From positions 25,243 to 89,242 of IMG/VR virus record IMGVR_UViG_3300022592_000003: a stretch of 64,000 bases of DNA. One strand, written 5' to 3'. Shown here piece by piece: positions 14,112 through 58,629 of this stretch (position 1 is its first letter; the number at the start of each line of letters is the position of its first letter). The notes beneath the pieces were generated by a model. It saw only the letters and a program-made list of their open reading frames with translations, searched no databases and was not told the origin of the DNA. The stretch is from a virus. Both the position numbers and the translations under genes were made by a program.

Positions 14112-14293
14112 TATTCATCCTTAGGGTTACGAAGGCGTAGGGTAAGAATCCACACTACAAAAGATGCTAGGGTTACCTTACCAATTACGGTTTTAGCTGA
14201 GCCTGTGAGCACAAGCCAAGCTGAGAATAGCCCTACAAATGTCCAGATTTCACCAAAGAAATCTGACGAGATGTCTTTAAAGAATTGCTTCAT
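14111..14293 (-). CDS. small two-helix membrane protein
   Basis: 60 residues: amphipathic start, then two hydrophobic segments (WTFVGLFSAWLVLTGS and VTLASFVVWILTLRL) and a charged end RLRNPKDE. Overlaps its neighbours by one base on each side. Size and topology suit a class II holin; equally it could assist the surface protein upstream. Not assigned with certainty. Confidence 0.6.
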   Translation of the reverse strand: MKQFFKDISSDFFGEIWTFVGLFSAWLVLTGSAKTVIGKVTLASFVVWILTLRLRNPKDE

Positions 14294-16485
14294 TAGTTAC
14301 CGAATCTCCTTCTTACGGCGGCAATGACGGTTGTCAATACCAATATTTTTTTAGCTTTTTTACGTGTAATAGGTGACATATCGTTACCGATGTTAGCCAT
14401 GGCTACGAATGCGTGATTGAGAGCTTGTACACCTGGTACTGCCGCTAAAGCTCCGGTTACAGGAGTTTCGATTACGGGGACGGCAACGTCAGGTGCATTG
14501 AATGTTGTGCCGCCTGGTTGTCCGATAAATGTATCGCTCAAGGTTATCGCATCTGGAGGGATAGGGAGGCCTGAACCAGGTGGAGGTGGTGGAGGGGTTA
14601 GCTTTCCATCTTCTCCAACTACTTGTGGTTGTGTTTTAGTACCAAAGAATTCAATACCACCGTTTTCAACGCCAGCTTTATCTTCTTGAACGTGTGGCAC
14701 TAAATTTGACTCATCAGGTAGTTTGGGTATAGAATCAGGTAAGGAATCAGGATTATTAGGAATTAGGCCGGGGGTAGCAGATGAGTCTGTGGTGGGATCT
14801 GTGGAAGGTGCGGGAGCTGGCTGAGGATCTGCAGCAACGGGTGGGTTATCTGCGGCAGGCTGCGGTGCAGGAGCTGGGTCAGGTGCCGGATTGGGTGTTC
14901 CCTCTGGAGCGGGAGCTGGAGCGGGCTCTGGAGCAGGTGCCGGAGCATCGGTTCCAGCTGGATCCGCAGTCGCTGGAGCGTCTGCAGCCGCACTTGGATC
15001 AGCTGCAGCAGGATCCGGTGCATCAGCAGGTGCTGGCACGTCTGGCTGTGTCTGAGGCGCAGGATCGGGTGCAGCAACTGGAGCAGGAGCTGGTGCAGGC
15101 AAAGGATCTGGTTGTTGAGCGGAAACAGGTTGCGAATCAGATGGAAGAGGAGAAGTAGATGGTTGAACAGGTTCTGAAGGGGATTGCGCTGTTTGCGTGT
15201 CTTCTTGAGATGGCGATGGTTGTTGTGGTTCTACTGCTGGGTCTGGTGAAGGCGCTGGTGTAGGCGATGGATCCGATGAATTGGTTGGTGTTTGGTCCTG
15301 TGCTGTTGTTGTCGTTCCTGTTTCTGGTGTGGTCACTGAAAAAGTATCCTGAGGAGCAGAAACCGAAGACGTCTCTTGAACCGTGGATGTTGGAGTCTCG
15401 GATGGCAATGGAGCGGGACTTGGCACGACTACGGGAGCAGGCTCAGGAAGAAAAATAGTCACTGGGTTTGAGTACGATGAGTACATCTGTGCCGTATCTT
15501 GGTCTGACCTAATAGTGAATGTATAAGACTTATTCCATCCAGCGGTAGAGGCCACTACGGAAGCGTCTATTGTTAGGCTGGTGGTTGTAGATGCCACGCC
15601 CCAACCTCCAACACCGTCAGTCCACATAACGGCATATCGCTCAGGCAACAAGCCTTCTGAAGGCGCATCCCACGAAAGAGTTACTGTTGCCCCATCAACT
15701 GTACCTAATAAATTAGCAGGTGGGTTTATGACCTTAGATGGGATTGCTGCTAGTGCATCTTTAACAGATTGCAAAGCTGCAGCTGCTTGGTCTATAGCTG
15801 GCAATAAAGCTGGGTCTTTAGTGTAAGTTGTTGTAGATCCCTGACCAAACCATGAGGCCGGCATTACCTGCGAGTTGCCTGAAGGTGGGACTACATATAG
15901 GGTGGAGCATGCGCCACCACCATTTTCATAGTACCAGGCATCCATATTGTATGCGGTACCGGCTGTAAGCTGAATAGGTTGGCTCCAAGAGCCGCCGCAA
16001 CCCTTATCTCTCCAGTCATTGTTAATTAGCTGACCGTTTAAGGTCATATACCAACCATCATCAGCAATGTTCATAAACTTGTATGCGCCAGTATCTGGGA
16101 CGGTAATAGTTCCATAATAGTGGATAACTACATGGTCGTTATTACATCCCGCAACTGATCCAGCACCCCAGTTAACGGCTATCTGTGTAAAGACGGTTGA
16201 ACGACAAAATGTGTTTGCATTTGGTGTCCTAGTAGCAGAGCTGTTGTAGACGTCTACTTTAATTCCGGATCCGGTAGGGGTAACGACAGGTATGCTACTG
16301 TTGTCATAGGCTGCCTGTGCAGCGTCTAATGCGGTTTGGGTAGCGGTAACGGCACTATTAGCATTATCTACTAAAGTGTTGTACTCAGTTAAAGAGTAGG
16401 TTCCTGCTGCAGAGGCTGGTGATTCAAATAGTGTGGTATAAAAAGCTGCGAATAGTAGTACAAATATTGCTGCAAATAAGCGCAA
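14293..16485 (-). CDS. secreted PA14/fibronectin III surface protein with long Pro/Ala-rich linker
   Basis: 730 residues from a TTG start; AAGGAG lies about 12 bases upstream. Residues 1-26 form a signal peptide (hydrophobic core, ASA cleavage). Residues about 65-205 resemble a PA14 domain (VVIHYYGTITVPDTG, FMNIADDGWYMTLNGQLI), which in other proteins binds glycans; 255-345 is a fibronectin type III domain; about 350-590 is a Pro/Ala/Thr/Asp linker with PAPAPEP-like repeats. The C-terminus has a short hydrophobic stretch with KKAKK and RRR. No LPxTG motif. Likely exported to the host surface during infection, perhaps altering adsorption. Confidence 0.82.
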   Translation of the reverse strand: MRLFAAIFVLLFAAFYTTLFESPASAAGTYSLTEYNTLVDNANSAVTATQTALDAAQAAYDNSSIPVVTPTGSGIKVDVYNSSATRTPNANTFCRSTVFTQIAVNWGAGSVAGCNNDHVVIHYYGTITVPDTGAYKFMNIADDGWYMTLNGQLINNDWRDKGCGGSWSQPIQLTAGTAYNMDAWYYENGGGACSTLYVVPPSGNSQVMPASWFGQGSTTTYTKDPALLPAIDQAAAALQSVKDALAAIPSKVINPPANLLGTVDGATVTLSWDAPSEGLLPERYAVMWTDGVGGWGVASTTTSLTIDASVVASTAGWNKSYTFTIRSDQDTAQMYSSYSNPVTIFLPEPAPVVVPSPAPLPSETPTSTVQETSSVSAPQDTFSVTTPETGTTTTAQDQTPTNSSDPSPTPAPSPDPAVEPQQPSPSQEDTQTAQSPSEPVQPSTSPLPSDSQPVSAQQPDPLPAPAPAPVAAPDPAPQTQPDVPAPADAPDPAAADPSAAADAPATADPAGTDAPAPAPEPAPAPAPEGTPNPAPDPAPAPQPAADNPPVAADPQPAPAPSTDPTTDSSATPGLIPNNPDSLPDSIPKLPDESNLVPHVQEDKAGVENGGIEFFGTKTQPQVVGEDGKLTPPPPPPGSGLPIPPDAITLSDTFIGQPGGTTFNAPDVAVPVIETPVTGALAAVPGVQALNHAFVAMANIGNDMSPITRKKAKKILVLTTVIAAVRRRFGN
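14800..15290 (-). repeat. Pro/Ala-rich repeat-coding tract
   Basis: Degenerate short repeats encoding PAPAP, PDPA, ADPA and similar units within the PA14 protein. This tract gives long open frames on the other strand that are not genes. Variation in copy number between isolates would be expected. Confidence 0.6.
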
Positions 16486-31512: not shown

Positions 31513-33348
31513 TTAACGATTGCGCTTTTTGATAGCGCCTGTGACTACTGACTTGGCAAACGGTAGAAGATCACGAGCCGACTTGATTCGACCATAGATC
31601 TCAGCACCGTGACGCCATTCATTCTCATTAGATCCTCGACCTGCATACCATTCAGCCGTACTGTCATCCATGATCAATGTCATGGCTGTTAGCACGCCTC
31701 GCTTGGCAATACGTTCGATGATCTCATCGTTCTTGTTGGCGTCAAACGCACCGTCGGTGATGATGAACAGCATCTTGTTCTTCTTACGAGAGGACATAAG
31801 TAACTGTTCGGCAGCAAGCAATGTGGAATACGGATTGGTTCCACCATTGCCATAGATGAACTTATACCTGCTCTTATCAGCAAGCTCAGTACGGCCATAC
31901 GCCAGCTCAGCCTGGTCATCGAATGCATAGACTGTGACTGGAGCACCGATCTGTTCTAGAGCACGCTTGATTGTCCAGCATGCGATAGAAGCATCACGGT
32001 CGTTACCACCACCGGACATAGAGCCTGATCTATCCACCATGATTACGGCTTCAACATCAGCACCATCATTGCCTTCGTCCCAACGATCGAATGCTTCATC
32101 AACTTCACAGCCTCTGATAGCACGCTGAACATTGAGCTTACCGCTGGCTTCCTCACGATGCCACATAGGTTCACACTCGTCACGCAAACGTTGTAGTTCA
32201 CGAGCAAACTTGCGATACAAGACCATGGATTCATCAGGGACGATAGTCTTATCGAACTTACCCTTCTTGATCGCATCATCATGTTTACCGTCTCCGCCAA
32301 CGATTACCTTCTGCTTAGTCTTGATATCCTGCTGAACGTCTTTACGTTCTAGCACTGTCTGGATAGTGTCCTCAAGCATGTCTTTGACTGATTGTGGAAT
32401 ACCACCAAGACTATCTACATGGCCTTGGCCAGGAGTCATAGATGGTGGTAGGTTGCTCTGCTGATTTTGCTCTCTAATGTCTAGAGCTTCTTGAGCAGAT
32501 TGTGGTTGCGTGGTTGTTTGTGTTGGATTGGATTTAGGAGCGACTGATGTTGACTCAGCCTTACCCATACCACCAGCACGCTTGGCATCCTTCTCCTGAG
32601 CCTTGCCAGGTTCGGGACGACCTTTGGTTACTGGGTCACGATTAGTACAGCCGTTAGGACCTTGCGGCATGTTCGGCATGTCTAGATTACCTAGCACCTC
32701 ATCATTGAAGCGCTTGATAAGTTCCTGACCCTTAGCATAGTCACGTGGGAATGCCAACAGACGATACTGATCTACGATGTCTGCGATTACTGGCACGAGT
32801 TCAGGCTTAGCAAACATATCTCTGAATGCTTGCCTGATTTCAATTGGTAGATATCTACGACCACGGACTAGCAAATAGTTTCCTGCTGCTTCCTCCGGTG
32901 TTGTTGATAGCCACCTAGATATTGTTGCTGTTAGATACGGCGCAATAGATGGATAACGAGCGACTAGCAAGGTTTCAATACGCTGATCCTCCAGCATATT
33001 GGCTGCTTGCATTAAGTCGTTCTCGACTACCCACTTCATGAACGTAGTACCACGACGTGGTGTATACAAGTGATGAGCAAGCTCATGATAATTAAGGCCG
33101 TTGACTTGAGTTAGTGTCTCAAGATCTATCTCCTTGATCTCATCGGCATTGAACGTAATAGATTGTCCGTCTGACCATGCTGGCGCTGGACCACCTTGAA
33201 CTACGTTAATCGTAACCGGATCTCCAGAGAGAACACGGTCAGCCTGCTCATACACACGGCAGAGAGCGTTGAGTCGTACAGATCGTTCCTGTGCTTCCTC
33301 GTCACGTTCCTGCCGATACCACGCATCATTCAGGTCTTCCTCAAACAT
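31513..33348 (-). CDS. HExxH-containing VWA-domain protein (CobT-like partner of AAA+)
   Basis: 611 residues. HELAHH at 88-93 is a zinc-protease-like motif in the N-terminal domain. A Pro/Gln/Thr linker follows (about 240-310), then a conserved helical part, then a von Willebrand A domain with MIDAS VDRSGSMSG (about 440). Such proteins pair with MoxR/CobS-type AAA+ ATPases, here the gene immediately upstream, 9 bases apart. Known pairs insert metals or remodel proteins. A link to the B12-dependent reductase is tempting but unsupported. The linker contains a CCAACACAAACA copy. Confidence 0.82.
   Translation of the reverse strand: MFEEDLNDAWYRQERDEEAQERSVRLNALCRVYEQADRVLSGDPVTINVVQGGPAPAWSDGQSITFNADEIKEIDLETLTQVNGLNYHELAHHLYTPRRGTTFMKWVVENDLMQAANMLEDQRIETLLVARYPSIAPYLTATISRWLSTTPEEAAGNYLLVRGRRYLPIEIRQAFRDMFAKPELVPVIADIVDQYRLLAFPRDYAKGQELIKRFNDEVLGNLDMPNMPQGPNGCTNRDPVTKGRPEPGKAQEKDAKRAGGMGKAESTSVAPKSNPTQTTTQPQSAQEALDIREQNQQSNLPPSMTPGQGHVDSLGGIPQSVKDMLEDTIQTVLERKDVQQDIKTKQKVIVGGDGKHDDAIKKGKFDKTIVPDESMVLYRKFARELQRLRDECEPMWHREEASGKLNVQRAIRGCEVDEAFDRWDEGNDGADVEAVIMVDRSGSMSGGGNDRDASIACWTIKRALEQIGAPVTVYAFDDQAELAYGRTELADKSRYKFIYGNGGTNPYSTLLAAEQLLMSSRKKNKMLFIITDGAFDANKNDEIIERIAKRGVLTAMTLIMDDSTAEWYAGRGSNENEWRHGAEIYGRIKSARDLLPFAKSVVTGAIKKRNR
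32515..32526 (-). repeat. CCAACACAAACA element, copy 4 (in coding sequence)
   Basis: Exact 12-mer in the disordered linker of the VWA gene, read as Pro-Thr-Gln-Thr. Confidence 0.8.
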
Positions 33349-33357
33349 TTACCCTCC

Positions 33358-34767
33358 TTATACTATGGCGGTGTGTTGGGTTACCCATTGTGCTAACTGC
33401 TCATCAATAGGTAGGTCTACTTGCTGCTCAACTTCGATCTGGATTTCCATACCGAAGTCAGTCTTGATGTTGTGCTCGTGTGTCTGGAATACCAGACGTA
33501 CGGATGCTTGCTCGTCTGCTGAGAAGTGAGCAATGAAGTTCTCAACTGCAAAGTCATAGCCGAGATCCTCATCCTTGATGAACTCCTCGATCTCCATGAG
33601 CATGTTAGTTGAGATTGGGGTCTCATACTGACCCTTGGCTGCCTCGCCACGCAATTGCTTAACGAGTGATAGCAAGGACTTGGATGAGACTAGCTTTGCC
33701 TCGACATTGTCGTCGTAATCCCATGACAGTTGAATGTCAAAGCGGTTACGCATAGCAAAGTTGAGCGGTGTGGTACCGATATAGTCTGGGTTCATGGTCG
33801 CAAAGATTGTTAGATCCTTGTGGGCCACGATTGTTTCACCCATATGATCGAGCAGCGTAATGCTACGACGACCATCGGTGAGTGGATATAGGGTGGTATA
33901 GATCTTAGGACTGATGAAGTTCATCTCGTCCAGTAGTAGTACACCACCGTTGCGAACAACGTCAGTTACTGGCCCGTCAATCCAGCCATAGCTGCCGTTG
34001 CCATCAGGAATAAAGCCACCGAATAGCTGGCGAGACTCCATAGATGCGTTACCAGATACTGTTGCCATACGCAAGCCACGTGCTGCGGCCCACGCTTCAA
34101 CAGCTGTAGTCTTACCGGGGCCGGTTGGGCCGTAGATAAGAACGTTGATGTGCTTATCACGTGCTTTGTCGAAGATGTTGAAGTCTTCAACGTTGTACAG
34201 CTTACGATGTACATATCGTTCTGCCAAATGCTGTGGCGGAACTGTAGCTAGTGATACAGCAAATGTTGGAGACGCTGTCTGCTGTACAGGAGCGGCATCC
34301 TCGTTTGTTTGTGTTGGGACAGGAACTACTAGAGGAACTGTAGTGCTTGTCGCAGCACGATTATCTGTTACGTATGCTTCCAATGAATCATCTCCGATGC
34401 TGATTTGTTCGTAGAAGTTACACACAACATCTACCAGAGGTGTTGTGTCTGTTGTTGGTTCAGCCTTGGAATGCTTGTCGCATGCCTTGGTGCCCAACAC
34501 TGGGGAATATCCCTTGGAAGTCATGGCACGCTCATCCGCTGGCGTAACGTATACGCCAACAGGAGTCCGTGTCAATATCTCACTATCCAAAATGCTACTA
34601 GTTAGACTGTCAAGAGTAGTTTCCTCCCACTTATTGTGAGGACCCTTAGTTCCATCGGTCAACCTAGAGTACACACGCACATTACCATCATGCGGTGTGA
34701 TAAGAACTTGACGACGCTTGCCGTTCAAGCCCTCATCGTATGACTCAGTGAACATTGCTATGTCCAT
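33358..34767 (-). CDS. MoxR/CobS-like AAA+ ATPase
   Basis: 469 residues. About 180 N-terminal residues without a known domain, then Walker A YGPTGPGKTT (~215), pore-loop-like SGNASMESRQLFGGFIP, Walker B GGVLLLDEMNF, sensor 1 IFATMNPDY and arginine finger region NFAMRNRFD. MoxR-type ATPases act as chaperones with VWA partners such as the next gene. A CCAACACAAACA copy lies in its linker. GAAAGGG precedes ATG. Confidence 0.85.
   Translation of the reverse strand: MDIAMFTESYDEGLNGKRRQVLITPHDGNVRVYSRLTDGTKGPHNKWEETTLDSLTSSILDSEILTRTPVGVYVTPADERAMTSKGYSPVLGTKACDKHSKAEPTTDTTPLVDVVCNFYEQISIGDDSLEAYVTDNRAATSTTVPLVVPVPTQTNEDAAPVQQTASPTFAVSLATVPPQHLAERYVHRKLYNVEDFNIFDKARDKHINVLIYGPTGPGKTTAVEAWAAARGLRMATVSGNASMESRQLFGGFIPDGNGSYGWIDGPVTDVVRNGGVLLLDEMNFISPKIYTTLYPLTDGRRSITLLDHMGETIVAHKDLTIFATMNPDYIGTTPLNFAMRNRFDIQLSWDYDDNVEAKLVSSKSLLSLVKQLRGEAAKGQYETPISTNMLMEIEEFIKDEDLGYDFAVENFIAHFSADEQASVRLVFQTHEHNIKTDFGMEIQIEVEQQVDLPIDEQLAQWVTQHTAIV
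34306..34317 (-). repeat. CCAACACAAACA element, copy 5 (in coding sequence)
   Basis: Exact 12-mer in the linker before the ATPase domain, read again as Pro-Thr-Gln-Thr. Confidence 0.8.
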
Positions 34768-39291: not shown

Positions 39292-39422
39292 TATTTAGCC
39301 TCCAATATATTGTTAATCAGTTTGAGCATATGTATCTCAGCCTGAAGTTGATACATCTTGATCTGTATATCAGCGAGTTGCTGTGAGATTTCTAGCAATC
39401 GCTCTGAGTCATCGTCTAGCAT
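39291..39422 (-). CDS. 43-residue coiled-coil peptide
   Basis: ATG overlaps the end of the WhiB gene. Heptad-like pattern (LLEISQQLADIQIKMYQLQA) across the whole peptide suggests a short coiled coil that may dimerise or bind a partner. Placement between WhiB and the next gene with overlaps at both ends supports that it is real. Confidence 0.6.
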   Translation of the reverse strand: MLDDDSERLLEISQQLADIQIKMYQLQAEIHMLKLINNILEAK

Positions 39423-39766
39423 GCGTACTTCTCCTTTAACTTAAGGCTCTTGAGGATTTGTTCTAGCGGTAGGTTTTTCTGGCCGGTAACCAACACGCCT
39501 CTATCCTTAGGTGTAGTACCACCCTGAATAGAGTGTCGGTCATCACGATCAACAGCATCTTTCAAGCACTCTAACTTGACAGGGCAATTAGCACAGACAC
39601 GCAAGGCTGCTTCAGCCTTAGCCTTGTAGTGCATGCCTCGCTCACCATCAGCAAAGTAAAACGCCTCAACATCACAGCCACGACAATTAGCCTTGTCCTG
39701 CCATGATAGGTCAGTACTCAACAGGGTGAGGATATGATGCCCTGGTCTAGCCATAGTTTCATTCAT
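39416..39766 (-). CDS. WhiB-family regulator, second copy
   Basis: 116 residues. ANCRGCDVEAF and RVCANCPVKLEC give C ... C-x2-C-x5-C for the iron-sulphur cluster; the usual GVWGG turn reads IQGGTTPKDR, and the C-terminus is basic. It differs clearly from the copy at 7737, so two distinct WhiB-type switches are encoded, one in the replication block and one in the accessory block. Confidence 0.85.
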   Translation of the reverse strand: MNETMARPGHHILTLLSTDLSWQDKANCRGCDVEAFYFADGERGMHYKAKAEAALRVCANCPVKLECLKDAVDRDDRHSIQGGTTPKDRGVLVTGQKNLPLEQILKSLKLKEKYAC

Positions 39767-42290: not shown

Positions 42291-42797
42291 ATGGCACACC
42301 CATATCAAAACCCAGGTAAAGACCAATATAACGATCGCTATCCAGATTGGTCAAAACATACCAAGACAGTGGTGGTACAACCACCAGTAACGATCCAATC
42401 CCTCTTTCCCCAGTTCAATCGCTGGGCTATTGGATTCGATCCCCTCTTAGAGACCCTAAGCAACATCAGCGCCTCTGCAAAGACAAGTAGCTACCCGCCC
42501 TATAACATCTACAAGGATGAGGACAAATACGTCCTAGAACTGGCTGTAGCAGGCTTTGGCAAGGAAGATATCACTATCTCGGTAAAAGAGCTCCAGTTGA
42601 CCGTAGAAGGCCAATTAGAGGCATCTGAGGACGAACCTATCCATAAGGGAATCGCTACCAGAGACTTCAAGCAGAACTTCGCTCTAGCGGAGTATGTAGT
42701 AGTCAAGGGAGCAGAGATGAAGGATGGCATGCTCCGTATTACCTTGAAGCAGGAATTACCTGAAGAGCTACAACCCAAGATTATCAAAATCAAGTAA
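42291..42797 (+). CDS. hsp20: Hsp20/alpha-crystallin small heat-shock protein
   Basis: 168 residues. YPPYNIYKDEDKYVLELAVA with GFGKEDITISVKELQLTVEG and LRITLKQELPEEL form the alpha-crystallin domain (about residues 64-165). Such chaperones hold unfolding proteins and occur in many aquatic phages, probably helping virion protein folding. It has its own promoter. Confidence 0.88.
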   Translation: MAHPYQNPGKDQYNDRYPDWSKHTKTVVVQPPVTIQSLFPQFNRWAIGFDPLLETLSNISASAKTSSYPPYNIYKDEDKYVLELAVAGFGKEDITISVKELQLTVEGQLEASEDEPIHKGIATRDFKQNFALAEYVVVKGAEMKDGMLRITLKQELPEELQPKIIKIK

Positions 42798-43273: not shown

Positions 43274-43468
43274 ATGGTAGGTGCAATATTTGGCCTTGTT
43301 GTCGGAGTGTTCGTTACTTGGGTCTGGTTGACTGAAGGGTCACCTAAGGCTCGTAAGGATAATCATCAAACAGGTGTAGTCCAGGTTCGTTGCTCACATT
43401 GTGGACAGATGAACTGGGTTAGCTATAACAATGTCCGTGTTGATACTAAATGCCCTAAGTGTGCATAA
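43274..43468 (+). CDS. membrane-anchored zinc-ribbon protein
   Basis: 64 residues; GGAGAAGG before ATG. One transmembrane helix (AIFGLVVGVFVTWVWL) followed by a zinc ribbon CSHCG ... CPKC on the inner side. Such small anchors are not assigned. Overlaps the next gene by one base. Confidence 0.66.
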   Translation: MVGAIFGLVVGVFVTWVWLTEGSPKARKDNHQTGVVQVRCSHCGQMNWVSYNNVRVDTKCPKCA

Positions 43469-43635
43469 TGCCTAAATACGACTATAAGTGTGAGACCTGT
43501 AATTCAACTATTGAAGTTACCCGCTCTTTTGATGAAGAGGGTTCTCCGCTGTGCACCACCTGTAATTCCACTATGATTAGGCAATGGAACGCCACACCGG
43601 CGATTTTCCGTGGTGGAGGCTGGGGAGGTAAGTAA
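43468..43635 (+). CDS. FmdB-like zinc-ribbon protein
   Basis: 55 residues. MPKYDYKCETC, LCTTCNSTMIRQWNATPAIF and the Gly-rich end GGGWGG match the FmdB regulatory zinc-ribbon family, common in bacteria and phages. Role unknown. One-base overlaps at both ends. Confidence 0.72.
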   Translation: MPKYDYKCETCNSTIEVTRSFDEEGSPLCTTCNSTMIRQWNATPAIFRGGGWGGK

Positions 43636-44060: not shown

Positions 44061-44087
44061 TAAGCTAAATCTCTACGAGAGGGTAAT

Positions 44088-44654
44088 ATGACAACGATCG
44101 CTGCAATCCAAGGTGACGGCTGGGTAGTAATGGGTGGAGACACTCAATCTACTGTGGCTGAGTATAAGCGCCTAGTTATGTCTAACGACAAGGTAATTAA
44201 CAACAATGGCATTCTCATTGCCGGTTGTGGTATGGGTCGTGGCATGGATCTATTGCAGAAGGCTTGGAAGGCTCCAAAGCCCCGCCCAAATCAGAGCATC
44301 GCTCAACTAGATGCGTGGATGGCGAAAACTTTTATTCCCGGAATGCGTAAGCTCTTTATTGAAGGTGGCTACGACATGAAGGATGACGGCGACTACGCCC
44401 AGCACGAAGGTGCATTTATCGTAGCTGTCCAGGGAGTTGTCTTCTATATTGACGACGACTATTCATTTGACCGTGAGGCTCGTGGAATTACTGCCTCAGG
44501 TAGCGGCGGCGACTTTGCCACAGGTTCTTTATATGGCAAGGATCTCTCAACCATTGATGCAGCCTGTGACGCTATGAGGACCGCTATTGATGCCGCTAGG
44601 GCATATGACGTATATTCTGGTGGAGAGACTCGGATTTACGTACAAGAAGCGTAA
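44088..44654 (+). CDS. proteasome beta-subunit-like Ntn hydrolase
   Basis: 188 residues; GAGGG upstream of ATG. After Met removal the sequence starts TTIAAIQGDGWVVMGGDTQS: Thr1 and Asp17 fall at the proteasome positions and a Lys occurs at 34 (NDKVINN), close to Lys33. SGSGGDFATGSL matches the later GSG strand. These residues form the threonine protease active site. No alpha subunit or HslU-like ATPase is adjacent. It sits before the PASTA-family genes, so virion protein processing or host protein removal are both possible. Confidence 0.7.
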   Translation: MTTIAAIQGDGWVVMGGDTQSTVAEYKRLVMSNDKVINNNGILIAGCGMGRGMDLLQKAWKAPKPRPNQSIAQLDAWMAKTFIPGMRKLFIEGGYDMKDDGDYAQHEGAFIVAVQGVVFYIDDDYSFDREARGITASGSGGDFATGSLYGKDLSTIDAACDAMRTAIDAARAYDVYSGGETRIYVQEA

Positions 44655-44693
44655 GACATATGCCATACTGAGCGCCTAAGGAAAGGCGTGTCC

Positions 44694-45338
44694 ATGGCAA
44701 CAGATTCATCCGGCAACCAGCAAGTTGCTTTTGAGTGGGGCAATCTCCCCATGCAACCAAATAATACCCGTACCGATACCTATGTTAGTCGTCCAGGCGA
44801 GTTAAATAGCTATTCTTATCAATATGTTGGTCCAGCTCTTGGAACTGGCGACAGCCATATTATTAATGGGCTTGAGTGGGATGGTTTCCCAGATAGTCAG
44901 CCTAACGCCGGTGTCACACACGTAGATAGCGGAAATCTTTTTTACTGGCCTTCATCAGGTGTTTGCTACAACAATCCTAAAGCTCCTGGCAATCGTTGGC
45001 AGGATATGATTGAGTATCTTCGCTCTGCAGGAGTTGACCCAGCAATTCTTAAGGAAGCTACCTTCACCGGTGGTTCTGACAAGTATGACTGGCAAAATGG
45101 AAGTTACGATATTGAAAATGCAGGAATTATCTTTTGGTCATACATTCCTGAAGATTCAATTCAATGGATTGACTGGCAAAACGGTGCTGTTTACACCGGA
45201 AAAGATTTTGATGGTTTTGTAATTAATTCCGCTCATTCTTGGGGACAAGAAGTTGGCGTAAATGACGTTCCTTGGAGCTTCTGGTTCACAGCCTTTACAA
45301 ATGATCCTGCCAAAAACAACACAGCGAGTTGGTTATAA
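44694..45338 (+). CDS. paralogous virion-type protein, member 1
   Basis: 214 residues from ATG with AAGGAAAGG 7 bases upstream. The start SSGNQQVAFEWGNLPMQPNN matches the starts of the genes at 45496 and 46376. The rest is Asn/Trp/Tyr-rich beta sequence typical of surface or fibre proteins, without a PASTA domain. Likely displayed on the virion; inferred. Confidence 0.66.
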   Translation: MATDSSGNQQVAFEWGNLPMQPNNTRTDTYVSRPGELNSYSYQYVGPALGTGDSHIINGLEWDGFPDSQPNAGVTHVDSGNLFYWPSSGVCYNNPKAPGNRWQDMIEYLRSAGVDPAILKEATFTGGSDKYDWQNGSYDIENAGIIFWSYIPEDSIQWIDWQNGAVYTGKDFDGFVINSAHSWGQEVGVNDVPWSFWFTAFTNDPAKNNTASWL

Positions 45339-45340
45339 AT

Positions 45341-45496
45341 ATGAAACTAGAAATCAAATGCGTTAAGTGCAATGACACAGAGCAATCAACAGACGTTCTA
45401 AAAGGCTTAAAGGCTTTTTACAACCCGTGTGAAGACTGTGGTTCTAAGCAAGAAGTTAAGTGGGTTGAGTTCACACAGAAAACAGGTAACAAGTAA
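45341..45496 (+). CDS. 51-residue zinc-ribbon protein
   Basis: CVKC and CEDCG with 21 residues between them; Lys-rich. Stop overlaps the next ATG by one base. The small unit sits within the PASTA-family set. Unknown. Confidence 0.63.
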   Translation: MKLEIKCVKCNDTEQSTDVLKGLKAFYNPCEDCGSKQEVKWVEFTQKTGNK

Positions 45497-46326
45497 TGAC
45501 TTATCCAGTAGATGATGCAGGAAATCCACAAGTTGACTTTGTATGGGGCCATATGCCTCTTCAGCCAAACGATCAGCGTGGTGCTTATGACAACGAAGGT
45601 AACCTTTCAACCAATAAGCCACAGAACAAGTACTGGACTGTTTCTAAGCCAGTAGGAAGTGCAAACCTTTCTACCGGTTGGACTGAAATTCCTTTTAATA
45701 CCGGTGATGGTGGAAACACTCGTTATCAGACAATTACATGGGATAGCCATGAAATCGCTACCGGCACATGGGAAAACTACCCAGGCTTTGCTACAGGTGG
45801 TGTTAATGACGACCTTATCCCTAACGCAACAGTACCTAACGTTGTTGGCCTAGGACTTTCATTTGCCTCTTCTGCACTTAATGCAGTAGGTCTTGGCCTT
45901 GGTAATGTTACTAACCACGTTGAGAGTGATAACCCTGCTCTTGATGGGGTTGTTTACTCACAATCAGTTCCTGCGGGAACTATCGTAAACCAAGGAGATA
46001 CTGTAGACCTAGTTCAAAACCAGTATGTAGTTCCAGTTAACCACATTGCCGGGTTCAGCACTACAAACCTTCCATCCGGATGGACACTTGGCGATAACGA
46101 AATTGTTATGTACATCACCGGTCGTACAATCGTACCGAGTGGTTCAGCAATTACTGTAACTGGAAATACAAATGCAACGTTGAACCAAAACTTCAATGTT
46201 ATTCAAGTTGCAAATGATGACCACTACAACACTGGTGGAACCGCTGTAAAACTACACGGTGCAGATGTACCATTCATTAACCCAAATACCAACACTGTTA
46301 CAGACGCTGTTTGGGTAAACCTTTAA
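45496..46326 (+). CDS. PASTA-domain virion-type protein, member 2
   Basis: 276 residues. Shared N-terminal module VDDAGNPQVDFVWGHMPLQP, then about residues 112-175 a PASTA domain: VPNVVGLGLSFASSALNAVG ... GVVYSQSVPAGTIVNQGDTV. PASTA domains of actinobacterial kinases and penicillin-binding proteins bind cell-wall peptides. A phage virion protein bearing one could hold the particle to peptidoglycan. C-terminal third is beta-rich. Confidence 0.72.
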   Translation: MTYPVDDAGNPQVDFVWGHMPLQPNDQRGAYDNEGNLSTNKPQNKYWTVSKPVGSANLSTGWTEIPFNTGDGGNTRYQTITWDSHEIATGTWENYPGFATGGVNDDLIPNATVPNVVGLGLSFASSALNAVGLGLGNVTNHVESDNPALDGVVYSQSVPAGTIVNQGDTVDLVQNQYVVPVNHIAGFSTTNLPSGWTLGDNEIVMYITGRTIVPSGSAITVTGNTNATLNQNFNVIQVANDDHYNTGGTAVKLHGADVPFINPNTNTVTDAVWVNL

Positions 46327-46375: not shown

Positions 46376-46912
46376 ATGTCAAACCCAGTAGATGACGCAG
46401 GTAACGTTGTTATTGACTTCGTTTGGGGTAATCTACCATTACAACCAGATGATGTTCGAGTAACTTCTCCAAGCCAAACTGTAACAGTTGGCGGAGCACA
46501 AAACCATAGCTGGACCAATTATGGTACTAAAGCTAGCGCTAAGATAAATCCTGCACAAGATACACACGTTATCGCAGAAGAGGCTTGGGCAAACTTCCCA
46601 GCATTTGCTGCTAACGAAGGTGTTCCAGCTTCTTCAACAACAATCACTATCCCAGATGTAACTGGATATGGACTTATTAGTGCTGTTGAGGCTCTTGTTC
46701 TTGCAGGTGCTAACGTAGGAACTGTTTCTTACCGCACAACAGGAGCAACCTATGCTAACACAGGTACGGTTTATTCAGTCTCCACATCAGGATCTAATAC
46801 TGAAGGAACAACCGTTAACCTAGTAGTCTACAAGTACCAAGATGCTTCACATCCAGGAATTAACCATAGCTCAGCTATTGGTCCTTGGACTGAAGGAACA
46901 GTCGCTGGTTAA
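46376..46912 (+). CDS. PASTA-domain virion-type protein, member 3
   Basis: 178 residues. Same N-terminal module (VDDAGNVVIDFVWGNLPLQP) and a PASTA domain at about 88-153 (IPDVTGYGLISAVEALVLAG ... GTVYSVSTSGSNTEGTTVNL). The C-terminal tail NHSSAIGPWTEGTVAG is short. Third copy of the family. It ends at a strong terminator. Confidence 0.72.
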   Translation: MSNPVDDAGNVVIDFVWGNLPLQPDDVRVTSPSQTVTVGGAQNHSWTNYGTKASAKINPAQDTHVIAEEAWANFPAFAANEGVPASSTTITIPDVTGYGLISAVEALVLAGANVGTVSYRTTGATYANTGTVYSVSTSGSNTEGTTVNLVVYKYQDASHPGINHSSAIGPWTEGTVAG

Positions 46913-52230: not shown

Positions 52231-52456
52231 GCGTAAGAGTAAAACAACAAAAGAGCTTACTAAGATTCAGCGCAGAGTTGGATCACTTCCTACCCAAGAG
52301 TTACTTACCTGGACTGACCAGATTATGTACTCAGTGGGTCGTAACCTTTCTGCTTGGCAGAAGACGCAGTACAAAGATAATTTAGCAGAGGCACGCTTAG
52401 GCGCAGAGTCACTAAGCGCTATCCTAGAAACACTTAGCGAAAGACATGGTCTGTGA
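52217..52456 (+). CDS. hypothetical helical protein next to terminase
   Basis: 79 residues from ATG (GGGGAA upstream). KRKSKTTKELTKIQRRVGSL then helices with DQIMYSVGRNLSAWQ. Coupled by 4 bases to terminase large subunit. Could be a small terminase-associated protein; the size is below that of most small terminase subunits. Confidence 0.6.
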   Translation: MKIFKRKSKTTKELTKIQRRVGSLPTQELLTWTDQIMYSVGRNLSAWQKTQYKDNLAEARLGAESLSAILETLSERHGL

Positions 52457-54030
52457 GCGAAAACGAGTTTGATGAGCTAGAGCCGGAGGATTTTGACGAA
52501 GACGGTAATGTCATCGTTGAAGAGGCAGAAGATGACGGCTTAGACGAGCTTTCTAAAGAGTTTGTTAAAGTATTGGTAAATAAGATCATGGACTTCATGA
52601 AAGTCTTGGTAGGCCACGATCTGCACCCATATCAGACTCCCCTAGCCCGTAGGCTTATTGAGTCAGTGATTATCAATGACGGTGAAGAAATCACCGCACT
52701 TGCTTCTCGTCAGTCAGGTAAGTCAGAAACTATTGCTAACACAGTGGCTACCCTTATGGTTATCCTCCCACGCCTAGCCAAGATGTACCCAGAGCTATTG
52801 GGTAAGTTTGGTGATGGAATTATGGTGGGAATGTTCGCACCGGTCCAGTCACAGGTAGAAACCCTATACGGACGTACAGTATCCCGCCTTACTAGCGAAT
52901 CTGCTATGGAAGTTTTGGGCGACCCTGAAATTGACGATATGGTTGCTAAGACCCCTGGAGTTGTAAGGAACATCAGACTTAAGAACTCAGGCAGTAGCCT
53001 TATGATGATGACAGCTAACCCACGAGCTAAGATTGAATCTAAGTCCTTCCACCTTATCATCATTGATGAGTGTCAAGAAGCGGACGACTTTGTAGTGGCC
53101 AAGTCAATTGCACCGATGGGTGCGTACTATAACGCCACCATGGTTAAGACCGGAACCCCTACCACACACAAGAACAACTTCTACAAGGCTATTCAGTTCA
53201 ACCGTCGTAGGCAGACCGGTAGGAATGCTCGACAGAACCACTACCAGTGGGACTGGAAAGATGTGGCTAAGGTAAACCCTAACTACGAAAAGTTTATTAA
53301 GAAGGAGATGCTTCGCATTGGTGAAGACTCCGATGAGTTCCAGCTCTCCTACAACTGTAAGTGGTTGCTAGAGCGAGGTATGTTCGTAACCTCTAGCATC
53401 ATGGAAGATCTCGGGGATACCTCTCAGGAGCTAGTAAAGTCTTGGCACCGTTCACCAGTCGTAGTTGGTATTGACCCAGCACGTAAGATGGACTCAACTG
53501 TTGTGACAGTAGTCTGGGTTGACTGGGATCGCCCCGATGAATACGGCTACTATGATCATAGAGTGTTAAACTGGCTTGAGCTTCAGGGTGATGACTGGGA
53601 AGAGCAGTACTTCCAGATCCAGCAGTTCCTATCAGCTTACGATGTGCTTGCTATCGGAATTGACGCCAACGGTGTTGGTGATGCAGTGGCCGGACGTTTA
53701 AAGGTCTTGATGCCTCGTGCAGAGGTAATTCCGGTAACTTCTAGCCCAACTGAGCAGTCTAAGCGTTGGAAGCACCTACAGGCCCTAATCCAGCGTCAGA
53801 TGGTCTCATGGCCAGCTCATGCTAAGACTCGTCGCCTTCGTATCTGGAAGAAGTTCTACCAGCAGATGACAGATGCTGAAGTTCAGTACAAGGGCCCAAA
53901 CTTTATGGTTGCAGCCCCAGACGAGGCCCACGCCCACGACGACTTCGTGGATTCACTAGCTTTGGCATGTTCCCTCACACAAGAACTTGTAATGCCAACA
54001 ATTGAGGTATCGGCAAGTCCTTTCTTTTAA
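52453..54030 (+). CDS. terL: terminase large subunit
   Basis: 525 residues from GTG. ATPase: SRQSGKSET (Walker A-like, ~90), LIIIDECQE (Walker B, ~200), GTPTTHKNN (coupling). Nuclease: GIDPARKMDS (~345), GIDANGVGD (~400), HDDFVDSLALA (~498). Acidic N-terminus. It cuts and pumps DNA into the head through the portal at 54902. Confidence 0.95.
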   Translation: MSENEFDELEPEDFDEDGNVIVEEAEDDGLDELSKEFVKVLVNKIMDFMKVLVGHDLHPYQTPLARRLIESVIINDGEEITALASRQSGKSETIANTVATLMVILPRLAKMYPELLGKFGDGIMVGMFAPVQSQVETLYGRTVSRLTSESAMEVLGDPEIDDMVAKTPGVVRNIRLKNSGSSLMMMTANPRAKIESKSFHLIIIDECQEADDFVVAKSIAPMGAYYNATMVKTGTPTTHKNNFYKAIQFNRRRQTGRNARQNHYQWDWKDVAKVNPNYEKFIKKEMLRIGEDSDEFQLSYNCKWLLERGMFVTSSIMEDLGDTSQELVKSWHRSPVVVGIDPARKMDSTVVTVVWVDWDRPDEYGYYDHRVLNWLELQGDDWEEQYFQIQQFLSAYDVLAIGIDANGVGDAVAGRLKVLMPRAEVIPVTSSPTEQSKRWKHLQALIQRQMVSWPAHAKTRRLRIWKKFYQQMTDAEVQYKGPNFMVAAPDEAHAHDDFVDSLALACSLTQELVMPTIEVSASPFF

Positions 54031-54117
54031 AAGATACACCTTTAGGCTGACTAATGGTTAAATAAAAGCGAGAATTATGCCCGAGGACCTCAATCCCAAT
54101 CCTATAGGAGAATAAAA

Positions 54118-54525
54118 ATGGCAGTAGAAAACATCGCCCCAACGCCTCAGTTCCCTGAGCGCCCAGGCAACTCTTACGAGCGTAAGATGTCTCCTGCAAC
54201 ACCTGGCCTCCGTGGCCCACTTCGTTTTGAAGAAGGTATTGCAACAGACACAGACGTTCCAAATGACTTCCAACTTGGTTTGGATCAAGGTTATGACACC
54301 CCAGAAGGTCGTCCTAACCACAATGTGAACGTATTTGAAAAGTATGCAGAAGAGACAATGCGTGAGCGTGCTCACGTCGGTTCAGCTGCATGGGTAGAAG
54401 CACCAACATACCTTGGCGAGTTCGCACAGGGTAACTTCGGAGATCACTCAACAGTGGTTATCGAAGAAGTCATTCGCAACGGCTCACGCCAGGAGCGCAT
54501 GAACCCAGCTTCAGTCCTAGACTAA
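54118..54525 (+). CDS. hypothetical protein between terminase and portal
   Basis: 135 residues; AGGAGAA before ATG. Pro/Arg/Asp-rich, mostly unstructured, with HSTVVIEEVIRNGSRQERMN at the end. Located where head accessory genes are usual; followed by a terminator. Confidence 0.68.
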   Translation: MAVENIAPTPQFPERPGNSYERKMSPATPGLRGPLRFEEGIATDTDVPNDFQLGLDQGYDTPEGRPNHNVNVFEKYAEETMRERAHVGSAAWVEAPTYLGEFAQGNFGDHSTVVIEEVIRNGSRQERMNPASVLD

Positions 54526-54545
54526 AAAATACGATAGACTATACC

Positions 54546-54588
54546 GGTCTCCAGCTCTGTACCCCTTTCTCCGGAGCTGGAGGCCTTT
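54546..54588 (+). terminator. terminator
   Basis: GGTCTCCAGCTC/GAGCTGGAGGCC (54546-54557 with 54574-54585; one wobble), 16-base loop, then TTT. Confidence 0.8.
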
Positions 54589-54601
54589 ATAGGAGGAGAC
54601 C

Positions 54602-54868
54602 ATGGCACAACCTAATAACCCAAAGCTGTATAATATGTTATTAGCGCAAGCTAAGGCAAAGTTTCCTTCGCACAAACCAAATGGTTTAAGTTTTCCAGCA
54701 GCTAAATGGTTTGGACAAGAATATGCAAGAGAAGGCGGTGGATTCGTAGATTCCATTAAGCAAGTAGATCCAAATCTACGTGACTTTAAGCAAGAAGAGA
54801 TTGACAAAGAAAAGCGTAAAGAAGCAGCAGATAAAAAGAAAGCAAAACAATCAGGTTTTGTGGTTTAA
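54602..54868 (+). CDS. hypothetical protein
   Basis: 88 residues; AGGAGG before ATG. KLYNMLLAQAKAKFPSHKPN, AAKWFGQEYAREGGGFVDSI then a Lys/Glu-rich helix. Resembles small basic head proteins upstream of portal. Unknown. Confidence 0.68.
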   Translation: MAQPNNPKLYNMLLAQAKAKFPSHKPNGLSFPAAKWFGQEYAREGGGFVDSIKQVDPNLRDFKQEEIDKEKRKEAADKKKAKQSGFVV

Positions 54869-54901
54869 GTTGGGGGCAACTATGAAGTCAGGATGTAATC
54901 A

Positions 54902-56617
54902 ATGAGCGGTGGTATGGATTTTTCACCTCCCAGTTATAGGGCGGCGTCATCTGATTTAACCATCTCCATTTCTCCACTAGGTCTAGTGGAACTTGCCGAT
55001 GAAGAGTTTGAAGTACACGGCCCACGTCTAAACCGTTACTCACTAAACTGGGCGATGTACCTTGGACACCACTGGTCTTACCGCCGTGAAATTGGCGAAT
55101 CGCAAATGGTATATAACTACTATCGTGCGTTTACAGACTTCATCATTAACTTTACTTTTAGCCGTGGCGTATCATTCCGTAGCCCACAGCAAACCGAAGC
55201 TATCGTTCCAGACATCCTAAAGCGTGTATGGGAAATTGATAACGATAAGCACGGTATCCTTTGGGAGATGGGCCAGCAAGGCGGCGTCTCAGGAGACTGC
55301 TTCGTCAAGGTAGCTTACGAAGAGGCTTTCCAGGATTCAACAGGTCGTCCACACCCAGGTCGTGTACGTATCCTTCCTCTTAACGCTTCTTTCTGTTTCC
55401 CAGAATTCCACCCACACGATCGCTCACGTTTGATTCGCTTCAAGCTCAAGTATCGCTTCTGGGGTACATCTGTAGAAGGCACACGCCAGGTCTACACATA
55501 TACAGAAATTTTGACTGATGACCGCATCGAAGAATACATTAATGACGAGCTCATTGATAGCCGTCCTAATCCAATCGGCGTTGTCCCAGTCATTCACATT
55601 CCTAACGTCCGTGTATCTGGTTCTCCATGGGGACTATCTGATTGCCACGACGTTATCACCCTCAACCGTAACTATAACGAGGTAGCTACCGATATCGCAG
55701 ATATCATCAACTACCACGCAGCTCCAGTTACAGTTATTACCGGTGCTAAGGCTTCAGCCCTTGAAAAGGGTCCTAAGAAGGTTTGGGCAGGTCTTCCTAA
55801 GGAAGCTCAGGTCTTCAACCTTGAAGGTGGCGGCCAAGGTCTCCAAGGCGCTATGGAATACCTTAAGATCATTAAGACTTCTATGCACGAAATGGTTGGT
55901 GTCCCAGAGACAGCTCTTGGACAGGTTCAGCCTATCTCTAACACCTCGGGTGTTGCTTTGGCTATTCAGTACCAGCCATTGATGAACCGTTACCACCAGA
56001 AGCTTGTGCAGTATCAAGAAGGCCTACGCCGTATCAACGAGTTGGTGCTTTTGACCCTTGCTTTTAAGGAGCCAGAGTCATTTATCTACAACCCAGATAT
56101 TAACGGCCCAATCAAGCCAGGCCAGCTTACAGCCCTAGATTTGGCTAGCCCATTGACCTATGAGTCAATCGTGCATATGCCACCTCCACTTCCACTAGAT
56201 AAGTTGATCGTACTCAACGAAATCCAGCAGAAAATGAACATGAACCTCGAAAGCCGTGAAGGCGCTCTTCGTCAGCTTGGCGAGGAATTCCCAGATGAGA
56301 AGCTTGCCGAAATTCGTGCAGAGCTTATTGCTGATGCTAAGGCTGACGGAGCTATCGCTCTTGTCAAGCAGCAGATAAATTCAGCAATCACCTCACTTAC
56401 TGGTATGATGCCTGATGGAACTCTTCCACCGGGAGCAGAACCTGGCGATGGCACTGGCCCTGGACCTACAGGACAACCTGGCGTTATCAGTCCAATGGAA
56501 GAAGCAACAATTACAGAACTTCAGCAAGAGATGGTCGTGGAAGCATACGGATCCCGTATCCCAGCGCAGACTGCAAACACGCAGACTGACACACCTAACT
56601 CTGAAGAAAACCAATGA
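54902..56617 (+). CDS. portal protein
   Basis: 571 residues. GWLxxG-type portal features are present: NYYRAFTDFIINFTFSRGVS, SGDCFVKVAYEEAF, SPWGLSDCHDVITLNRNYNE, and MVGVPETALGQVQPISNTSG. C-terminal part Pro/Gly/Gln-rich. The portal ring anchors terminase and tail. Position after terminase and before scaffold and capsid supports the call. Confidence 0.88.
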   Translation: MSGGMDFSPPSYRAASSDLTISISPLGLVELADEEFEVHGPRLNRYSLNWAMYLGHHWSYRREIGESQMVYNYYRAFTDFIINFTFSRGVSFRSPQQTEAIVPDILKRVWEIDNDKHGILWEMGQQGGVSGDCFVKVAYEEAFQDSTGRPHPGRVRILPLNASFCFPEFHPHDRSRLIRFKLKYRFWGTSVEGTRQVYTYTEILTDDRIEEYINDELIDSRPNPIGVVPVIHIPNVRVSGSPWGLSDCHDVITLNRNYNEVATDIADIINYHAAPVTVITGAKASALEKGPKKVWAGLPKEAQVFNLEGGGQGLQGAMEYLKIIKTSMHEMVGVPETALGQVQPISNTSGVALAIQYQPLMNRYHQKLVQYQEGLRRINELVLLTLAFKEPESFIYNPDINGPIKPGQLTALDLASPLTYESIVHMPPPLPLDKLIVLNEIQQKMNMNLESREGALRQLGEEFPDEKLAEIRAELIADAKADGAIALVKQQINSAITSLTGMMPDGTLPPGAEPGDGTGPGPTGQPGVISPMEEATITELQQEMVVEAYGSRIPAQTANTQTDTPNSEENQ

Positions 56618-56622
56618 TTTAA

Positions 56623-56650
56623 CCTGACAAACTAGCGATAGTTTGTCAGG
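56623..56650 (+). terminator. hairpin after portal
   Basis: CCTGACAAACT/AGTTTGTCAGG, 11 bp perfect, 6-base loop. No T tract follows, so partial termination or processing is likely. Confidence 0.6.
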
Positions 56651-56725
56651 CTATATACCAAACTAACCCGCAGGTCATCGTGGCATTAAATCGGACAACG
56701 ACCTCTTAAACCTAAAGGAACAAGC

Positions 56726-57499
56726 ATGTCAGAAACAACACCAGTTGTTGTTGATAGTGCAGTGGCCCAGGAAGCTTTTGCTTCTGAAGTTAATGGCACC
56801 GCATCAGCAGCACAGCAAGAAGTAGTCCCACCTGTTGCAGATGCAAAGGCAGGATACACAGAAGTAGATCTTCAACGAGTTCGGGAACAAGAGAAGTCAA
56901 AGCTGTATCCACAGATTGACTCGCTTAAAGAAGAAATCAATCTACTTAAGAAAGATCGTGAAGCGCAGGTAGCGGAAGCACAGCGCATTGCGAAAGAGAA
57001 AGAAGAAGAAGCCCGTAAGAAGGCAGAATCTGAGATGGATGTCCGTTCACTTCTTGAAAAGAAGGAACAAGAATGGGCAGCCCAGCTAGAAGGTATCCGT
57101 CAGGAAAGCGCCCGCAAGGACGCACTTCTAGAGCGTGAGCGTCAGTATGCTGAACTTACCGCTTATCGTAATCGTCGTATTGCTGAAGAGCAAGAGAACA
57201 TTATGCCTGAGCTTGTAGATCTAATCTCAGGAAATACTGCAGACGAGATTGAACAGAGTATTACAGGACTTAGGGATCGTTCCACTAAGATTCTGGAATC
57301 GGCGCAGCAGGCTATGCAGTCAGCTCGTCGTGATATGAAGGGCACAAGTACTACTTTGCCCCCAACCATGGAAAATAATTCGGGTCAACAACAGTTCACA
57401 GCGGATCAGATTGCCGCAATGTCGGTTACCGAGTACGCAAAATACAGAGATCGTTTGTTCCCAGGAGCAAACAATCAAAATAAGGGAATCTTCGGGTAA
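56726..57499 (+). CDS. scaffold-like coiled-coil protein
   Basis: 257 residues. Residues about 45-160 are almost continuous charged coiled coil (REQEKSKLYPQIDSLKEEIN), with a Gly/Asn/Gln tail ending YAKYRDRLFPGANN. Directly upstream of the capsid gene, as scaffold proteins are. AAAGGAAC before ATG. Confidence 0.82.
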   Translation: MSETTPVVVDSAVAQEAFASEVNGTASAAQQEVVPPVADAKAGYTEVDLQRVREQEKSKLYPQIDSLKEEINLLKKDREAQVAEAQRIAKEKEEEARKKAESEMDVRSLLEKKEQEWAAQLEGIRQESARKDALLERERQYAELTAYRNRRIAEEQENIMPELVDLISGNTADEIEQSITGLRDRSTKILESAQQAMQSARRDMKGTSTTLPPTMENNSGQQQFTADQIAAMSVTEYAKYRDRLFPGANNQNKGIFG

Positions 57500-57552
57500 G
57501 CAATTACCTTCCAAACCAACCTCAACATATATGAACAAGGAGTAATACCGAC

Positions 57553-58629
57553 ATGGCATCAGCCGTAACAGGTACCGGCAATCTCGCCGCAGCACCTACA
57601 GCGTATTCTGGCGCAAACAGCCAGCTTACACAAGCAATTCAGACCATCTGGTCTAAGGAAATTCTTTTCCAGTCAATGCCAATTCTTCGCTTCGAACAGT
57701 TCGCAGTAAAGAAGACTGAACTTGGTGTCGCACCAGGTCTCCAGATCAACTTCATGCGTTACAACAACCTCGGCTTTGCAGCCCCATTGGTTGAAGGCGT
57801 TCGTATGTCAACAAACGCATTGACAGCACAGCAATTCTCAATCACAGTTGCAGAGCATGGCTATGCAATTGCAGTATCTGAGCTCCTCCTTAACGCATCA
57901 TTCGATGACGTTATGGCATCAGCTTCACGTCTTCTTGGACGTAACATGGCTCTCTACCTTGATGGCCAGGCTCGTGACACACTCATGGCAGCATCCTCAG
58001 TTATCTACGGCGAAGATCGCACAGGTCTTGACGCTGTAAACAACTGGTACGGATACGGCACAGAAGCTACATCACGTGCTTCACTCACCGGTTCTTCATT
58101 CCTCTCAACACGTACCGTTAAGGACGCTGTCGAGACATTGGCAACCAAGAACATCCCAAGGTTGGGCGAGACATACGTCGCTTTCGTTCACCCACACCAG
58201 TCTCGTCGTCTTCGTGACCTCCCAGAGTTCATCGAAGTAACAAAGTACGCAGCTCCAGGTAACTTCATGCTCGGTGAAATCGGTCGTCTCTACGACACAG
58301 TCTTCATTGAGACAACACAAATCCAGAAGGTAACAAACGGCGCAGGTTCTGGCTACACAGCTGACTCAACCGTTGCTCCTGGAGATATCGTTTACCCAAC
58401 TGGCGGAGGTTACACCACCCCAGTAACAAAGACCGGTAACGGTAACAAGGATCGCTACTCAGCGATCTTCATTGGTGACAATGCATTCGGACACGCAATC
58501 TCACTTCCAGTTGAGCTTCGTGACGGCGGTATCCTCGACTTCGGTCGTGAGCACGCTCTTGCATGGTACGCAATCTACGGCCTCGGTCTTATCACCGATC
58601 AAAGCGTAGTAATTGCGGAGACAAATTAG
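57553..58629 (+). CDS. major capsid protein (N4-gp56 type)
   Basis: 358 residues. AIQTIWSKEILFQSMPILRF, ITVAEHGYAIAVSELLLNAS, YVAFVHPHQSRRLRDLPEFI and FMLGEIGRLYDTVFIETTQI match the N4-gp56 family of HK97-fold capsids. AAGGAG lies 10 bases upstream. Expected to be the most abundant virion protein. Confidence 0.93.
   Translation: MASAVTGTGNLAAAPTAYSGANSQLTQAIQTIWSKEILFQSMPILRFEQFAVKKTELGVAPGLQINFMRYNNLGFAAPLVEGVRMSTNALTAQQFSITVAEHGYAIAVSELLLNASFDDVMASASRLLGRNMALYLDGQARDTLMAASSVIYGEDRTGLDAVNNWYGYGTEATSRASLTGSSFLSTRTVKDAVETLATKNIPRLGETYVAFVHPHQSRRLRDLPEFIEVTKYAAPGNFMLGEIGRLYDTVFIETTQIQKVTNGAGSGYTADSTVAPGDIVYPTGGGYTTPVTKTGNGNKDRYSAIFIGDNAFGHAISLPVELRDGGILDFGREHALAWYAIYGLGLITDQSVVIAETN

Follow-up and report, generated by a model that had tools for sequence, protein, structure and literature searches.

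A proteasome-like threonine hydrolase with an intact active site in a virus very probably infecting freshwater actinobacteria

Introduction

What use would a phage have for a proteasome-like hydrolase? The question is raised by one open reading frame in the window (the whole stretch of 64,000 nucleotides analysed here), which is part of an 89 kb IMG/VR contig that is linear and possibly incomplete. An earlier note, made from the letters of the DNA, had described this frame as a phage-encoded proteasome-like threonine hydrolase and had named interference with the host proteasome, mimicry of it and virion maturation as possible roles. Phage proteasome homologues are not new as a class, the PPH and AAH families having been described in 2021 (Fuchs, Alva and Lupas 2021, PMC8665760). 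Such homologues have been catalogued, and in the literature we found no report of one that had been characterised.

Results

The gene and its translation start

The open reading frame was found at exactly the coordinates given for it in the earlier note (Table 1). The product begins M-T-T-I-A-A-I-Q, the ATG being followed directly by ACA (Thr). In 72 of 74 relatives, too, this start has a purine-rich site resembling a Shine-Dalgarno sequence before it, and the start codons of the relatives (68 ATG, 4 TTG and 2 ATC) are followed by Thr in every case; the hydrolase therefore has no propeptide. Maturation would consist of Met removal alone, which would expose Thr1. Comparison with the nearest relatives gave a pairwise dN of 0.12-0.16 and a dS of at least 1.3, so that dN/dS is about 0.1 or less with dS near saturation. 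The gene is under purifying selection.

Table 1. Positions in the window of the hydrolase gene, its main sequence elements and the other genes that bear on its function.
Feature	Position	Strand	Remarks
VWA protein gene	31513-33348	-	Paired with the AAA+ gene
MoxR/CobS-like AAA+ ATPase gene	33358-34767	-	
Shine-Dalgarno site GAGAGGG	44077..44083	+	4 bases 5' of the ATG (sequence)
Proteasome-like Ntn (threonine) hydrolase gene	44088..44654	+	188 aa, no propeptide
Thr1 codon (predicted nucleophile, exposed by Met removal)	44091..44093	+	Thr1 in 40/40 distinct relatives; model residue 2 aligns to BPH residue 1
Asp17 codon	44139..44141	+	39 D and 1 E among 40 distinct relatives
Lys33-equivalent codon (position 34 here, one-residue insertion)	44190..44192	+	Lys in 40/40; aligned to beta5i Lys33
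Acidic cavity ('pore') loop GYDMKDDGDYAQHEGA	44367..44414	+	Residues 93-108, between H2 and the next strand
Ser129-equivalent codon in GSG motif	44502..44504	+	38 S and 2 T among 40 distinct relatives
Asp166...Ser169-equivalent motif D-V-Y-S, then GG	44607..44618	+	Aligned to DNYSGG of beta5i
Terminase, portal, scaffold-like and capsid genes	52453-58629	+	Streptomyces phage BRock/LuckySocke type

Fold and active site

The hydrolase was matched by the Pfam Proteasome model (PF00227) at 4.4e-5, above the gathering score, and the same model matched 40/41 members of the family alignment at 0.01 or lower (best 2.5e-12); a six-frame PF00227 search of the record itself missed the gene at the search threshold, even though the protein passes the gathering score. 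PHROG 1040 ('peptidase HslV family') matched the protein over its full length (4.6e-25), and the family profile matched proteasome beta subunits in the PDB at 2e-8. An AlphaFold2 model built from 41 sequences had a mean pLDDT of 89.9 and a pTM of 0.88, and Foldseek matched it to HslV, BPH and proteasome beta at about 1e-10. The best structural match, tied with several proteasome subunits, was BPH (betaproteobacterial proteasome homologue, PDB 5ovs/5ovt), on which VIA-align placed 169 residues of the model (Z 19.2, 2.6-2.7 A) with model residue 2 on chain residue 1. The model contains the helices H1 (50-58) and H2 (71-92) and ends with the last strand at 182-187, as group I homologues do. A BFVD fold search returned further viral proteins with the same fold, including one from the Gordonia phage Daredevil. 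The comparison with HslV and proteasome beta that had been suggested as a check thus confirmed an Ntn hydrolase fold, with Z about 19 and Thr1 at its start.

Active-site conservation was assessed in 40 distinct relatives, each less than 90% identical (Table 1). The placing of Thr1 and Asp17 at the proteasome active-site positions, claimed earlier, was borne out. The Lys that had been put next to the Lys33 position is present and invariant, but it is Lys33 itself displaced by one inserted residue, because the profile alignment to mouse proteasome beta5i pairs Lys34 with Lys33. The GSG strand is likewise there, and it carries Ser138, the equivalent of Ser129. After Met removal the hydrolase residues are Thr1, Asp17, Lys34, Gly47, the GSG with Ser138, Asp173 and Ser176; the beta5i alignment sets the last three on Ser129, Asp166 and Ser169, with GSGG on GSGN and DxYSGG on DNYSGG. 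Thr2 and Gly47 are also invariant in all 40 relatives. The Asp166 equivalent is D in 40/40, and the Ser169 equivalent is S in 36/40 with two Thr and two Cys. Since the equivalents of Ser129, Asp166 and Ser169 are present as well, the active site is complete, and the earlier note had caught only some of its residues. Loss of Thr1 or Lys among relatives, which that note had named as a refutation, was not seen (both 40/40).

The protein thus combines the proteasome fold with the N-terminal Thr1, Asp17, Lys33 and Gly47 that mark PF00227 members, and its identity as an Ntn hydrolase of the proteasome fold, with the active site intact, is almost certain. The fold, the full catalytic set, conservation and viral context all lend good support to its description as a phage-encoded proteasome-like threonine hydrolase.

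Place among proteasome homologues

Known families were considered in turn. Membership in HslV was rejected on the NCBIfam HslV models (19.5 against a cut-off of 137 and 18.4 against 157.75 bits), and membership in PrcB on TIGR03690 (11.6 against 191.9 bits), the missing propeptide and the lack of an alpha gene nearby. PPH proteins have about 140 residues and no helix H2 (PMC8665760), whereas the hydrolase has 188 residues with H2 present. Connectase, a proteasome-fold homologue that acts as a ligase and not as a protease (PMC8665760), was rejected given that the model has H1 and H2 and no two-helix S3/S4 insertion. LuckySocke gp42, annotated 'peptidase', was discarded as a relative, not being an Ntn hydrolase.

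The hydrolase resembles AAH in being a group I subunit of about 180 aa with T1/D17/K33 and no propeptide, and, as the model ends at strand 182-187, it is compact and lacks S12 and the C-terminal H5. The nearest profile match of the window family was an AAH reference set (3e-28, compared with 7e-9 for a single HslV sequence); this set is a proxy chosen by taxonomy, Rhizobium, Streptomyces, Bacillus and phage sequences being taken as AAH. Plasmid-borne relatives occur in Rhizobium, Sinorhizobium, Paraburkholderia, Bacillus and Streptomyces, which is the distribution given for AAH. A maximum-likelihood tree separated three clades, namely the window family (94/95), the AAH proxy (100/99) and the DSL-LC01-type proteins (86/74), without settling their order. 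The tree and the profile comparison therefore indicate a distinct subfamily near AAH. It differs from the AAH proxy set in forming a separate clade, keeping Asp166/Ser169, carrying the acidic loop motif YDMKDDG and occurring in actinophages. With HslV it shares the fold, the Thr-Thr start and the GSGG motif, but it has no HslU, an extra cavity loop and Asp166/Ser169. BPH, at 18% identity, lay outside the tree sampling; an acidic cavity loop and the lack of a dedicated unfoldase are common to both proteins (for BPH, PMC8665760).

A single pattern scan of IMG/VR yielded 84 related loci. No bacterial relative of the window family was found in a scan of genome contigs with the window-family pattern, and among 396 genomes sampled from the Streptomyces phylum there was no member and one weaker match of AAH type. 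No PADLOC defence family matched the hydrolase. PHROG 1040 is wide in scope, since AAH-like, Arthrobacter/Microbacterium phage and DSL-LC01 proteins fall into it too. The DSL-LC01 protein WJZ48484 and the SEA-PHAGES 'protease' of Pitbull, Hum25, LeeroyJenkins and WaterT are actinophage-borne members of the same superfamily that are already in GenBank, but they are only 26-32% identical to the hydrolase and fall outside the window clade. Judged by these sequence comparisons, the window family is apparently an undescribed subfamily next to the presumed AAH and would be specific to actinobacterial viruses.

The acidic cavity loop

Between H2 and the next strand lies a loop that is inserted relative to E. 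coli HslV. It is almost invariant (G93, Y94, D95 and K97 in 75/75 sequences) and has a mean charge of -4.3 in the family. Model confidence is low (pLDDT 64) at residues 101-110, within the loop. The corresponding 'pore loop' is short in HslV, whose gatekeeper is HslU; in BPH, apparently without an unfoldase, it is long and acidic (Fuchs et al., PMC8665760). Because the loop lies at the site of this pore loop and is acidic as in BPH, we propose by analogy that it may gate entry without an unfoldase.

The phage and its host

The capsid protein of the record is 71-73% and the terminase 51-53% identical to those of Streptomyces phages of the BRock/LuckySocke group, and IMG/VR holds at least 600 related capsid loci. 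DUF7455 is present in the window. Of 80 hydrolase-family loci scanned by regular expression, 27 had DUF7455-like genes and 12 had WhiB-like genes; the same scan returned neither in 80 viral loci of AAH type. A homologue with 32% identity adjoins a WhiB gene in DSL-LC01, an actinophage (PMC10611076). We conclude that the record very probably comes from a virus of freshwater actinobacteria. No AAH was found in an Actinobacteria-specific phage by Fuchs et al. (PMC8665760), and the window clade comes close to filling this gap, being AAH-like with strict membership subject to the proxy noted above. Two proteins in the window, at 7737-8069 (+) and 39416-39766 (-), appear WhiB-like by eye and point to an actinobacterial host.

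Genes around the hydrolase

From the hydrolase gene the distance downstream to the terminase gene is 8.4 kb, and to the capsid gene 13.5 kb. The earlier statement that neither an alpha subunit nor an ATPase is adjacent was right: no alpha subunit was found in the surroundings within the window, and the nearest AAA+ gene is 9.3 kb off on the other strand. In the 89 kb record, possibly incomplete, no HslU-type AAA_2 scored above the cut-off; the control for this search was positive in all 14 genomes. An HslU supplied by the host is conceivable.

Directly downstream are three consecutive proteins (44688-45338, 45496-46326 and 46376-46912, all +) with a common N-terminal tag of about 25 aa, DxxGNxxVDFVWGNxPxQPND. 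Their C-termini differ, and two have a PASTA domain. Sequences flanking many related IMG/VR loci also contain the VDFVWGN tag, and a tagged downstream protein had no credible match among named phages. These are possibly virion-anchored decoration proteins.

Proposed function and alternatives

On balance we lean towards an active peptidase housed in a ring chamber, without an unfoldase of its own, that acts inside the infected cell. The hydrolase would be a threonine peptidase of the proteasome family, of the compact group I kind in the neighbourhood of HslV, BPH and AAH, and it most likely assembles, as its relatives do, into a closed homo-oligomeric ring chamber. With no dedicated phage unfoldase, the invariant acidic cavity loop would restrict entry, so that the polypeptides degraded in the infected actinobacterium would be unstructured, misfolded or chaperone-delivered. 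The purpose may be host takeover or phage proteostasis and not virion assembly. Two points stand against this reading: connectase shares the fold and yet is a ligase, and a MoxR/CobS-type AAA+ gene was present in 7/7 tested hydrolase records longer than 60 kb.

The latter point also speaks for a rather unlikely alternative, in which the hydrolase and this non-adjacent AAA+ protein, with its VWA partner, form an energy-dependent protease. Altogether the AAA+ gene was present in 11/20 tested hydrolase records, among them that of DSL-LC01, in which the capsid protein shows no detectable relationship, and none of its matches comes from a Streptomyces phage, the group to which LuckySocke and BRock, both without the hydrolase, belong. 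However, the gene lies on the opposite strand some 9 kb away, and the co-occurrence is not independent because the phages of the window clade are related. Among 17 phage records with a hydrolase only DSL-LC01 was evident in the AAA+ matches. The AAA+ gene often occurs where the hydrolase does not (it was matched in 271 phage records, most of them from cyanophages and Gordonia phages), and the partner is therefore a lead only. We also count against it that Fuchs et al. (PMC8665760) found no co-occurring AAA+ for these homologue families.

It is unlikely that the hydrolase is a highly specific processing enzyme or connectase-like transpeptidase with one phage or host substrate, such as the VDFVWGN-tagged proteins. 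Several of these are encoded directly downstream, many related loci have the tag no more than 8 kb from the hydrolase, and connectase itself is a ligase (PMC8665760); but the tag is not always adjacent, its distance reaching 8 kb, and no connectase-type S3/S4 insertion is evident in the model.

Virion maturation, in which the hydrolase would be a prohead protease cleaving scaffold or capsid proteins, was made improbable by the distribution of the gene. The record has no match to peptidase S78 and no recognised protease gene among its portal, scaffold-like and capsid genes, and the hydrolase sits in a conserved place 8 kb upstream of the terminase and is present in 7/7 close relatives. However, the complete genome of LuckySocke, with a 73% identical capsid protein and the same portal-scaffold-capsid order, has neither the hydrolase nor an annotated capsid protease, and LeeroyJenkins has a hydrolase homologue as well as a separate capsid maturation protease. 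The capsid protein also matches its family from near its own start, and the scaffold-like gene is separate. Among the matches listed, the hydrolase was found in 7/7 informative contigs with a capsid protein at least 89% identical, mostly 12-17 kb upstream, one contig with an 86% identical capsid protein had a divergent copy, and five contigs with 84-85% identical capsid proteins and 17-28 kb of upstream sequence had none. Thus the hydrolase is core to its clade and is not required by the capsid module, and a maturation role is unlikely because phages with the same module lack the gene.

Interference with or mimicry of the host 20S proteasome, by co-assembly with PrcB/PrcA, is very unlikely because selection acts on the catalytic site (an inhibitor or mimic would not need the seven conserved catalytic positions), the affinity is to AAH, HslV and BPH and not to PrcB by model score, and homologues are encoded by phages that infect Moorella, Geobacillus, Psychrobacter and Vibrio, which would be expected to lack a 20S proteasome, even though the host is actinobacterial, PrcB was present in two Actinobacteria tested and the C-terminal DxYSGG motif is beta-like.

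Returning to the peptidase without its own unfoldase, the clade is well populated (the 84 loci above), strongly selected and belongs to a lineage with cultured capsid relatives that infect Streptomyces, and its function is therefore testable; in particular, it would allow the idea that an acidic cavity loop gates entry without an unfoldase to be put to the test. In a broader form, which is conceivable but doubtful, an undescribed actinophage branch would use an ATP-independent acid-gated (or MoxR/VWA-driven) ring protease to reshape the proteome of the infected actinobacterium beside the Pup-proteasome of the host.

Other genes in the window

An Hsp20 small heat-shock protein gene (42291-42797, +; PHROG 432, 5e-34) lies 1.3 kb upstream of the hydrolase gene, and such a gene is near the hydrolase in 7/31 loci. 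An FmdB-type zinc-ribbon protein (Pfam Zn_ribbon_8) is encoded nearby at 43459-43635 (+), with a similar gene in 15/31 loci. Farther away, 14293-16485 (-) encodes a 730-aa protein that has a very long repeat region rich in Pro, Ala and Asp and whose N-terminal part looks PA14-like by eye.
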